Made by a program: the position numbers and the translations under genes. Source: Geothrix sp. (GTDB lineage: Bacteria; Acidobacteriota; Holophagae; Holophagales; Holophagaceae). From it: 64,000 bases of DNA. Each line of letters opens with the position of its first letter. The stretch's first letter is position 1. Below are positions 37,556 to 41,065 of this stretch, piece after piece. The stretch spans positions 1 to 64,000 of the forward strand of contig NZ_CP126625.1 of NCBI RefSeq assembly GCF_030219325.1, read 5' to 3'. Below the pieces are notes generated by a model, which was not told the origin of the DNA, made no database searches, and worked only from the letters and a program-made list of their open reading frames with translations.

Positions 37556-37581
37556 GAGTCTTTTTCAAGCGCTTGTCTCGT

Positions 37582-38709
37582 ATGGAACCTTCCATGATCC
37601 CCGCCGACCGCCTATCCCTTCTGAAGCCCTCGCCCATCCGCGCCATCACGGATGGCACGCCGCCCGGGGCCATCCCCCTGGGCCTGGGCGAGCCCACTTG
37701 GGACCTGCCGGAGGTGGCCCGCAAGGCCCTGCTCCGCGAGCCCGGCCCCTGCGCCTACGTGCCCCACGTGGGCCTGCTGGAATTGCGCCGTGCCGTGGCC
37801 GCCTTCCACGGCGCCCAGGTGGACGAGGTGCTCATCACCACGGGTTCGCAGGGGGCGCTGTTCTCCCTGTTCCAGGCCTGGGTGGAGCCCGGCACCCAGG
37901 TGCTGATGCCCGATCCCGGCTTCGTGGCCTACCCGGCCCTGGCCCGCATGGCCGGCGCCGAGCCCGTGACCTACCGGCTCTCCGCCGACCGCTTCCGCCT
38001 GGACGCCGACGAGCTCATCCGCGTGCTGGACGCCACGCCCGGCGCCTCCGCCGTGATCCTCAACCTGCCCTCCAATCCCACGGGCGGCGGCGGTGACCTC
38101 ACGGCCCTGAAGCGCGTGGCCGATGCCTGCACGGCCCGGGGCGTGCTGCTCATCTCCGACGAGGTATACCGCGACCTGCACTTCGGCGTGCGTGCGCCCA
38201 GCCTGCGGGACGTCACCGACCGCGGCGTGGTGACCAGCTCCGTGAGCAAGGGCTGGGGCGCGCCGGGCCTGCGGGTGGGCTGGGCCGTGGGCGATCCCGC
38301 CTGGCTGCTGCCCGCCCGCGTGGTGCATGGCTACGCGGTCACCGGCACCGCCACCCCGGCCCAGTGGGCCGCGCTGGCCCTCCTCGAACACTCCGACACC
38401 GTGCTGGCCGAGGCCCGAGCCGCCGTGCAGCTGCGCTGGCAGGCCCTCGCCGAGGCCCTCCGCGAGGAGCTGGGCCACGCCGTGACCCCGCCCGACGGCA
38501 CCTTCTACCACTTCATGCCCCTGCCCCCCACGGCCCACGCCGATCCCCTGGCCTTCTGCCTGCGCCTGCGCGACGAGGCCAAGGTGGTGCTCATCCCCGG
38601 CCTCGCCTTCGGCGAAGGCGGCCGCGGCCACGCTAGGCTCAGCTTCGCCGCCACGCCGGAGCAGCTGAAGGAGGGTGTGCGGCGCTTGGCGCCGTACTGG
38701 ACGTCATAA
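37582..38709 (+). CDS. Class I/II PLP aminotransferase, probable succinyldiaminopimelate aminotransferase
   Basis: A 375-residue fold-type I aminotransferase. The PLP lysine is in SSVSKGWGAPGLRVGW (about residue 223) and the cofactor-contacting residues are in NLPSNPTGGG (about 160) and ISDEVYRDLHFG (about 192). A C-terminal arginine in GRGHARLSFAA would bind the substrate carboxylate. The position next to dapD, with a lysA-like gene further on, suggests the DapC step (N-succinyl-2-amino-6-ketopimelate to N-succinyl-DAP). Aspartate or aromatic transamination cannot be excluded. In-frame ATGs at 37582 and 37594 are possible; the second has GGAA upstream. It is separated from dapD by the octamer palindrome. 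Confidence 0.72.
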   Translation: MEPSMIPADRLSLLKPSPIRAITDGTPPGAIPLGLGEPTWDLPEVARKALLREPGPCAYVPHVGLLELRRAVAAFHGAQVDEVLITTGSQGALFSLFQAWVEPGTQVLMPDPGFVAYPALARMAGAEPVTYRLSADRFRLDADELIRVLDATPGASAVILNLPSNPTGGGGDLTALKRVADACTARGVLLISDEVYRDLHFGVRAPSLRDVTDRGVVTSSVSKGWGAPGLRVGWAVGDPAWLLPARVVHGYAVTGTATPAQWAALALLEHSDTVLAEARAAVQLRWQALAEALREELGHAVTPPDGTFYHFMPLPPTAHADPLAFCLRLRDEAKVVLIPGLAFGEGGRGHARLSFAATPEQLKEGVRRLAPYWTS

Positions 38710-38763
38710 CGAGGGTTGCCTGCTGTCTAGGCCCATTCCAAGAACGGAGTCAGAATCTCCTAC

Positions 38764-39846
38764 ATGGCCAATCTTCCACCCAAACCATCCGAACAGACCT
38801 TTCCTGGCGGATCTAAGTCCCGTGTCAATCGCGCCGGAGAAAAGGTTCGGGTGAATCTCGCAACGAGTGATGACCTTCACGTCATCGACGAGTGGCGGGC
38901 GGCGCATCGTGCGGTTCTAAATACATTTAAGGCCATCCTCATCCAACGTGGCCGAGGAAAGGGGATCATCTTTGCTCAAAGACACAAGCGTAAGCGCACG
39001 ATCTTCGACAAATTAAAACGATTTCCCGGCATGAATCTATCTCGAATGGACGACGTGGCGGGCTGCCGCCTCATATTCAAAAGCATTAAGGAGCTTTATT
39101 CGTTCAGGGAGAAATTTCATCAAGCTCGATTCAACCATAAGAGAAGAAATTCGGATGAAAAGGACAAATACGACTACATCAAAAAGCCCAAAGAAACGGG
39201 CTATCGCGGTGTCCACGATGTATACGAATACGACGTCAACTCTGTTGTAGGTCGGCCTCTCGCGGGGCTCTATGTTGAAATCCAGTACCGCACCCTTGTA
39301 CAACACGCATGGGCAACCACGGTCGAGGTGATCGGGTTCATTACTGAAAGCCAACCAAAATTTCAACAAGGCGACACGAGATTTGAGCATGCCATGCAAA
39401 TGGCAAGTGAGCTTCTGGCTCGTGCTCATGAGCGAATGAAGGGCCCACTGCCTGAAATATCAGATCGTGACCTTGTTGCTCAGTTTCTAGCTGCAGATCA
39501 AGAGTTAGGCTTGTTGCAAATGCTGCGTGGGTTGAATGCCGCAGACAAGGTCGTATCGTCAAAGAGAAATGCAATTTTGATTTTTTCAGAAGGGAAACCC
39601 CTTGAGGTAAAACAGTACCGCGATGCAACTGATGCGCTTCGTGCGCTGTTTGACCTTGAAAAGCAGATGCCTGATCGAGACATCGTACTTGTTCGCGCAG
39701 ACACCGGCGAGGAGGTTCGATTGGCATTCAAGAACTACTTCTCAGATGCTCGAGACTTCATTCGTTTAATTGAGGATGCGTGCACTAAGCTCACCAAGGC
39801 AAAGAACCTCCTCGACGTATCGTCCTTCAAGGCAGGACAGTCTTAA
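38764..39846 (+). CDS. RelA/SpoT-domain nucleotide pyrophosphotransferase, low-GC acquired gene
   Basis: A 360-residue protein with a lone RelA/SpoT synthetase domain and no HD hydrolase, TGS or ACT. Key segments are RHKRKRTIFDKLKR (about 73-86, ATP/G-loop basic patch), MDDVAGCRLIF (95-105; Asp97 is the metal ligand), KPKETGYRGVHDVYEY (141-156) and VEIQYRTLVQHAW (171-183; Glu172 catalytic). About 70 basic residues precede the domain and about 150 unassigned residues follow it. The gene is visibly AT-richer than all neighbours, with A/T-ending codons, and splits the lysine genes, so it was probably acquired. Lone synthetases of this kind may be alarmone synthetases, toxic tRNA- or nucleotide-modifying enzymes, or phage-defence effectors. 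No antitoxin gene is adjacent and no good ribosome-binding site is seen. Confidence 0.8.
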   Translation: MANLPPKPSEQTFPGGSKSRVNRAGEKVRVNLATSDDLHVIDEWRAAHRAVLNTFKAILIQRGRGKGIIFAQRHKRKRTIFDKLKRFPGMNLSRMDDVAGCRLIFKSIKELYSFREKFHQARFNHKRRNSDEKDKYDYIKKPKETGYRGVHDVYEYDVNSVVGRPLAGLYVEIQYRTLVQHAWATTVEVIGFITESQPKFQQGDTRFEHAMQMASELLARAHERMKGPLPEISDRDLVAQFLAADQELGLLQMLRGLNAADKVVSSKRNAILIFSEGKPLEVKQYRDATDALRALFDLEKQMPDRDIVLVRADTGEEVRLAFKNYFSDARDFIRLIEDACTKLTKAKNLLDVSSFKAGQS

Positions 39847-39910
39847 TCACGAGCGTGACTAGGCGAAACACAAGCAATCAACTCTGCACGCCCACCAGGT
39901 TGAACTTGAA

Positions 39911-41065
39911 ATGAAACCTCTTTTTCCCCTCGAGGACGCCACCTGCCGCCACCTCGCGGAAGCCCACGGCACGCCCTGCTTCGCCTACTCCGCCGCGGCA
40001 GCGGCGGAGCAATTCTCCTCACTACGCAAAGTAATGCCCCCCCGGATGCGTCTGGCCTACGCGGTGAAGGCCAACCCGCACCGGGACCTGCTGGCCTGCT
40101 TCGCGGCCCTGGGCGCCAGCTTCGACTGTGCGTCGATCGGTGAATTGGAGCGGGTGGAGGCGCTGGGGCTGCCGCCCGGCCGCACCTTCTTCGCGGGGCC
40201 GGGCAAGCGGGAGGCGGAGTTGAAGAAGGCCCTGGCCATGGGCGTGCGGGTCCAGGCCGAGGGCTTCGAGGACCTGGCGCGCCTCGACGTGCTGGTGGAC
40301 CGCGAGACCGCCGTGAACCTGCGGGTGCACCCCGCCTTCGACATCGACGAGGGCAACCGCATCATCGGCGGCAGCGGGCCCTCGGCCTTCGGCGTGGACG
40401 AGGAGGCTGTGCCCGCCCTGCTCCAGAAGGCCGCGAACCTGCGCCACGTGCGCATCCGCGGTCTGCACGTGTTCGCCGCCAGCAACCAGCGCGACGCGGC
40501 CAAGCTGCTGGCCATCCACGGCGCGGTGCTGTCCCTGGCGCAGCGCCTGCACGAGGCCCACGGATTGGCCTTCGAGCAGATCGATCTGGGCGGTGGCCTG
40601 GGCATCCCCTACGCGTCGGAGCAGGCCCCGCTGGACCTCGCGACCCTGGGGCGCGGCCACGCCGAGCTGCTGGCGCGGCATCCCTGGTTCACGGGTGAGC
40701 TGATCCTGGAGCCCGGCCGCTTCCTGGCGGGGCCCTGCGGCATGTACCTGGCCCGGGTGGTGCGGATCAAGGAGAGCCGCGGCACGCGCTTCGCCATCCT
40801 GGAGGGCGGCATCAACCACCTGATCCGCCCCCTGCTCACGGGCGAGCCCTTCCCCGTGAAGGCCGTGGGCAAGGGCGAAGGCTCCGTGCAGTACACGCTG
40901 GCCGGGCCCCTCTGCACCAGCCTGGATCGCCTGGGGGAGGCGCGCCTGCCGGAGCTGGCCGCGGGCGATCTGCTGGCCTTCGGCAGCACCGGCGCCTATG
41001 GCCTGAACGAAGGCATGACCCACTTCCTGAGCCATCCGGTACCGCCAGAAGTATGGGTAGGTTGA
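39911..41065 (+). CDS. Fold-III PLP decarboxylase, candidate diaminopimelate decarboxylase (lysA-like)
   Basis: A 384-residue alanine-racemase-fold decarboxylase. The PLP lysine is in AYAVKANPHRDLL (about residue 53). HVFAASNQRD and LGGGLGIPY bind the phosphate and EPGRFLAGPCGMY follows. The specificity motif reads GPLCTSLDRLG where canonical LysA has GPxCESGD; glutamate is replaced. This wording also occurs in fold-III decarboxylases outside lysine synthesis, such as exosortase-associated and glutamyl-carrier decarboxylases. The location beside the dap genes favours the last lysine step, but the motif weakens it. It follows the low-GC RelA/SpoT gene after 64 bp and is convergent with the TPR gene. 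Confidence 0.65.
   Translation: MKPLFPLEDATCRHLAEAHGTPCFAYSAAAAAEQFSSLRKVMPPRMRLAYAVKANPHRDLLACFAALGASFDCASIGELERVEALGLPPGRTFFAGPGKREAELKKALAMGVRVQAEGFEDLARLDVLVDRETAVNLRVHPAFDIDEGNRIIGGSGPSAFGVDEEAVPALLQKAANLRHVRIRGLHVFAASNQRDAAKLLAIHGAVLSLAQRLHEAHGLAFEQIDLGGGLGIPYASEQAPLDLATLGRGHAELLARHPWFTGELILEPGRFLAGPCGMYLARVVRIKESRGTRFAILEGGINHLIRPLLTGEPFPVKAVGKGEGSVQYTLAGPLCTSLDRLGEARLPELAAGDLLAFGSTGAYGLNEGMTHFLSHPVPPEVWVG

Follow-up and report, generated by a model that had tools for sequence, protein, structure and literature searches.

Between two lysine biosynthesis genes in the window (the whole stretch of 64,000 nt that was analysed, bases 1–64000 of the 3.73-Mb, single-contig host genome), we identified a gene, very probably gained by horizontal transfer, that would act as a one-gene antiphage system: a fused toxSAS toxin–antitoxin of the CapRel family. 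By analogy with characterised relatives, its product is predicted to be an autoinhibited tRNA pyrophosphokinase that a phage protein would release.

A foreign gene in the lysine cluster

The first-pass annotation had drawn attention to a low-GC gene among lysine genes, and the composition of the window bears this out. The CapRel-type gene has a GC content of 0.491, whereas the 41 ORFs of the window that reach 150 aa average 0.690 (sd 0.043); it is the lowest of them all, the next lowest being at 0.633. Sliding GC content falls from ∼0.74 to ∼0.48 and recovers inside ∼1.2 kb, between dapC and lysA. The features of this region are as follows:

37573..38709, + strand: upstream native flank, dapC-type aminotransferase of the lysine cluster (84–93% identical in genus relatives)
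38727..39890, no strand assigned: inserted segment, approximate and with uncertain ends, placed by the empty sites of relatives
38764..39846, + strand: CapRel-family fused toxin–antitoxin gene, 360 aa, intact, ATG start (profile, alignment, fold)
39911..41065, + strand: downstream native flank, lysA, diaminopimelate decarboxylase (77–86% identical in genus relatives)

The surrounding cluster, whose genes we take from their translations to be asd, aspartokinase, dapB, dapA, dapD, dapC and lysA, is tightly packed and lies entirely on the + strand. A scan found no consensus sigma-70 promoter near the CapRel-type gene, such scans being weak evidence. Given the shared strand, the short gaps (54 bp on the dapC side and 64 bp on the lysA side) and the lack of a recognisable promoter of its own, the gene is probably co-transcribed with the lysine operon.

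Vertical inheritance within the genus with matching composition, which had been named as the pattern that would speak against the first-pass reading, is not what we found. Among 46 same-genus genomes, from a database that covers one genome per species, a full-length homologue was present in only two, G042 (72% identity) and G046 (32%). The G042 homologue sits at a site other than dapC–lysA, next to what we presume from its sequence to be a peptidase-like gene. The foreign origin of the CapRel-type gene is demonstrated. The gene is under purifying selection, with synonymous differences saturated (0.83–0.89) and nonsynonymous differences at 0.14–0.22.

Full-length homology to CapRel

In Pfam, the sole match of the 360-aa protein was RelA_SpoT (residues 72–185, E = 1.5e-13) and no HD hydrolase domain was found, as the first-pass annotation had concluded from the translation. 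PADLOC assigned the protein to one family, PDC-S33 (E = 1.2e-100, 335 bits, residues 14–342). CapRel-SJ46, encoded by Salmonella phage SJ46 (PDB 7ZTB and 9ERV; PMC9712102), itself matches the same model (E = 7e-87, 290 bits), so PDC-S33 covers CapRel. When a profile of 29 homologues was searched against the PDB, CapRel (7ztb/9erv) was matched over its full length (E = 2.4e-43), whereas RelQ (4e-13) and other synthetases were matched over the catalytic domain only. A direct alignment to CapRel-SJ46 with hhalign scored 99.9% over 314 columns. Structure prediction, which the first-pass annotation had suggested for the C-terminal part, led to the same family: the AlphaFold2 model, with a mean pLDDT of 82, shows a C-terminal strand-strand-helix-strand, and the top Foldseek matches were 9erv and 7ztb (E = 2e-17, TM 0.70/0.73), with the fold matching these crystal structures over ∼350 columns, compared with only ∼190 columns for housekeeping SAS. 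Profile, alignment, key residues and fold all place the protein, over its whole length, in the CapRel family (PDC-S33).

Like CapRel-SJ46, it combines in a single ORF a toxSYNTH domain, a cysteine-free pseudo-zinc-finger and a switch, and the two proteins share their donor, catalytic and G-loop residues as well as the PADLOC family. They are only ∼27% identical (360 aa compared with 373 aa for CapRel-SJ46), and the window protein lacks insertions found in the CapRel-SJ46 sensor region. Furthermore, the window gene is chromosomal, whereas CapRel-SJ46 is phage-borne.

Close relatives are integron gene cassettes

Homologues 45–80% identical to the window protein occur in several phyla, and their genes have a GC content of mostly 0.37–0.48 whatever the host. 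The nearest, L001 (79% identity), comes from the metagenome-assembled genome of a gammaproteobacterium, a member of another phylum. In the tree, the window gene groups with L001 (100/99 support), then with L002–L004, and apart from the Holophagaceae copies L006 and L034; as one Holophagaceae homologue groups with the same-genus copy, we take the host to be probably a member of Holophagaceae (Acidobacteriota). This placement suggests two acquisitions in Holophagaceae.

The L001 locus encodes an integron integrase, IntI, 57% identical to that of the window's host, and contains attC copies that are 85–89% alike, one of which ends right before the CapRel homologue. L003 is flanked by attC copies that are 92% alike, and attC of the host type are found at L006 and L034. 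Judged by these attC copies and the integrase, the four close relatives for which we claim this status (L001, L003, L006 and L034) are demonstrably integron gene cassettes. Other homologues reside on plasmids, in a Mu-like prophage region and on viral contigs, the latter up to 71% identical. The host of the window gene also carries an integron:

702200–715301 of the host contig (G000:C1; L087, L088), strand not given: chromosomal integron, IntI and 16 attC

Its IntI is a true integrase (463 bits, cut-off 265), and the array consists of 16 near-identical attC of 124 bp each across about 10.5 kb, with mostly uncharacterised cassettes of mostly 0.43–0.56 GC. One RidA-like and one PD-T4-2_B-like cassette are among them.

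With cassettes as its nearest relatives and an integron in its host genome, the window copy may well descend from an integron gene cassette too, and we regard this ancestry as plausible. As no attC could be detected at the window copy, its route of entry is something that we infer. Neither a pattern scan, nor a comparison with shuffled sequences (a coarse control), nor a profile of the 16 host attC revealed an attC near 38764–39846, and neither a recombinase nor a significant terminal repeat was found there. These negative results favour direct insertion without an integron step, whether through illegitimate recombination, transformation or a phage, as does the presence of relatives in prophage and plasmid contexts. 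Against such a route stand the cassette status of the nearest relative and of two other Holophagaceae copies, and the host integron with its cassettes of the same low GC; we give direct insertion nearly an even chance. A short repeat at the ends of the insert (TGTCTAGGC/TGACTAGGC) was considered as a remnant or duplication and rejected, as by our estimate chance alone would give ∼0.3 such matches. The flanks of the window gene and those of its homologues showed no similarity.

Toxin–antitoxin cassettes are known stabilisers of integron arrays. The gene could accordingly be a toxin–antitoxin module that stabilises a mobile element or array by addiction and has no anti-phage role, an idea with which the occurrence of homologues in integrons, plasmids and prophages would agree. 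However, with both activities on a single polypeptide, a cell that loses the gene would lose toxin and antitoxin at once, and post-segregational killing should not arise; moreover, the window copy lies outside any element. We therefore consider addiction improbable and antiphage defence the better reading.

The first-pass annotation had pointed to defence islands as a place to look for homologues, and this expectation was disappointed: few of the 148 ORFs next to homologues have a PADLOC family in common, so we claim no strong enrichment, and the gene neighbours are mostly not defence genes. Two loci deserve separate mention. At L001 (5203–5694), an ORF shortly before the CapRel homologue and in the same integron belongs to PDC-S08, another phage-defence candidate. 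At L044 (NZ_CP077203.1, 7992–8552), a shortened CapRel relative (66%) lies in the Mu-like prophage region of an Aeromonas plasmid and is followed by an apparent transposase gene.

Active site and predicted C-terminal lock

Alignment to CapRel-SJ46 and FaRel2, together with the Pfam match and the AlphaFold2 model, delimits three elements of the protein:

38875..39363, + strand: toxSYNTH pyrophosphokinase domain, about residues 38–200 (Pfam; aligned to CapRel-SJ46 and FaRel2)
39556..39699, + strand: pseudo-zinc-finger antitoxin/sensor domain, about residues 265–312 (strand-strand-helix-strand, AlphaFold2)
39727..39738, + strand: neutralising switch F322-K-N-Y325 (FXXY), counterpart by alignment of YXXY 352–355 in CapRel-SJ46

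The toxSYNTH residues are R73, K75, T79, K83, R86, D97, R102, Y147, E172 and Q174. Asp97 and Glu172, described as intact in the first-pass annotation, are invariant across 35 aligned homologues including CapRel-SJ46, and so are the donor arginines R73 and R102 and the G-loop residue Y147. The donor-site set of FaRel2 (R64, K66, S70, K74, R77, D90, R95, E145 and Q147; PMC11782079) aligns to R73, K75, T79, K83, R86, D97, R102, E172 and Q174. The basic N-terminus noted in the first pass is only mildly so, with six K/R and four D/E in residues 1–40.

The C-terminal 150 residues had been suggested to be a built-in sensor or neutraliser, and in alignment and model they correspond to a putative pseudo-zinc-finger antitoxin/sensor module. 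AlphaFold2 predicts strands at 269–274, 281–284 and 306–311, a helix at 288–301 and a further helix from 315. The pseudo-zinc-finger region is of moderate confidence (pLDDT 58–69), and the hinge (313–323) has low pLDDT. The only cysteine beyond residue 200 is C340, so the pseudo-zinc-finger is devoid of zinc cysteines. Most interface residues of CapRel-SJ46, and all of its catalytic and donor residues, are present in the aligned window protein: R79, R116, Y155 and A77 of CapRel-SJ46 correspond to R73, R102, Y147 and A71, and in the C-terminal part V338, L339, A351 and Y355 correspond to V308, L309, A321 and Y325.

Two positions of the lock differ. Y352 of CapRel-SJ46 aligns with F322, giving FXXY instead of YXXY; across the wider family, the first switch position is F or Y, while the second tyrosine and the F that follows are invariant in the alignment, and in the clade of the window gene the first position is F. 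In addition, A341 of CapRel-SJ46 is replaced by R311, and this position is mostly K/R in the clade. The substitution A341K turned CapRel-SJ46 constitutively toxic (PMC9712102), so the lock of the clade must differ in detail and accommodate a basic residue. On the toxSYNTH strand, the residue beside R79 of CapRel-SJ46 is R78, for which the window protein has Q72; we speculate that this exchange might relieve a charge clash. Conservation is 0.82 in the switch segment (313–335), 0.81 in the catalytic domain, 0.72 in the pseudo-zinc-finger and 0.66 in the linker, as would be the case for a sensor that diversifies next to a lock that is preserved.

Proposed mechanism

CapRel-SJ46 is locked by its pseudo-zinc-finger, which sits on the ATP site with the YXXY motif between R79 and R116; a phage capsid protein releases this lock, and tRNA is pyrophosphorylated (PMC9712102). 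We infer the substrate, autoinhibition and trigger of the window protein by analogy. In uninfected cells, its pseudo-zinc-finger would fold back so that F322-K-N-Y325 occludes the adenine-binding site, which lies between R73 and R102. Upon infection, a phage protein, or a host protein altered by the phage, would bind the C-terminal module and open the switch. The toxSYNTH domain would then use ATP as pyrophosphate donor, with the 3′ CCA end of tRNA as the most likely acceptor, and translation would stop, resulting in abortive infection. The first-pass proposal of a toxic alarmone synthetase or phage-triggered effector with a built-in sensor or neutraliser in essence describes CapRel and is largely supported by the homology; within this family, the expected product is a pyrophosphorylated tRNA and not an alarmone.

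tRNA is the likelier substrate because translation-targeting toxSAS go with a YXXY-type pseudo-zinc-finger lock (PMC11782079). A metabolism-targeting toxSAS, which depletes ATP by making (p)ppApp, would have the same catalytic residues, and the substrate is not readable from sequence alone; but the (p)ppApp makers Tas1 and FaRel are neutralised by Tis1-like domains (PMC11782079), while the window protein has the pseudo-zinc-finger module, and we regard (p)ppApp synthesis as less likely again than addiction. Least likely of all is an accessory housekeeping small alarmone synthetase of the RelQ/RelP type that makes ppGpp and has an unrelated C-terminal regulator: the synthetase domain does match RelQ and the NCBIfam model GTPPhKinYjbM, but with 46.5 bits it stays far below the model cut-off of 320 for this family, CapRel is the sole full-length match, distribution is patchy and composition foreign, and a separate long RSH encoded elsewhere in the host genome means that the protein is not needed for ppGpp.

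Relation to known defence systems

The tRNA pyrophosphokinase with a built-in lock that we favour has several precedents. Fused CapRels are already known (PMC9712102). By their description, CapRel-Ebc and CapRel-Kp are similar, tested fused toxSAS with antiphage activity; their C-terminus determines specificity, and triggers differ among members (PMC9712102, PMC13423816). FaRel2–ATfaRel2 also pairs a tRNA-targeting toxSYNTH domain, with equivalent donor-site residues, with a pseudo-zinc-finger whose YXXY locks the ATP site, but consists of two separate genes whose products form a heterotetramer (PMC11782079), whereas the window protein is fused. Integron-borne defence genes are known as well: PMC12409362, citing Darracq 2025 and Kieffer 2025, describes small single-gene antiphage systems as cassettes. 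Unlike those cassettes, the window copy lies outside an array and has no detectable attC.

The main added value of our analysis is the integron link for CapRel; the switch variant is also noteworthy. No integron link was found in the literature searched, which did not extend to subscription papers; a Morganella genome survey mentions both CapRel and integrons, unlinked. To our knowledge, this family of direct phage sensors has not been studied in an acidobacteriotal host. The clade is a natural setting in which to test how well the autoinhibition model holds, as it combines the type of residue that unlocks CapRel-SJ46 (K/R at 341) with F at the first switch tyrosine and is under purifying selection despite both. 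We tentatively propose, with the balance somewhat against it, that this cross-phylum clade, marked by the FXXY switch and the basic residue at the A341 position, spreads chiefly as cassettes, and that strays become fixed in housekeeping operons such as dap–lysA, which would supply expression of a promoterless immune gene. A single immune gene in a lysine operon is also an example of how the expression of housekeeping operons could serve defence genes.

The dapC–lysA gap as a variable spot

In genus relatives, the dapC–lysA gap mostly measures 2–144 bp, with 33 bp in G018 and G042. Some relatives have other genes there, which makes the gap a variable spot. Single genes occupy it in several of them (L052, L058, L062, L068, L061, L069 and L074), one of them encoding a type IV restriction-like enzyme (L052, in G043); from their sequences, we take others to be DinB-like proteins and, in L068, possibly a regulator-like protein. 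In several empty sites (L055, L056, L050, L063 and L072), an imperfect palindromic repeat, CCGCAGAGNNCGCAGAG...CTCTGCGTTCTCTGCGGTTAG, precedes lysA and is possibly a small mobile repeat.
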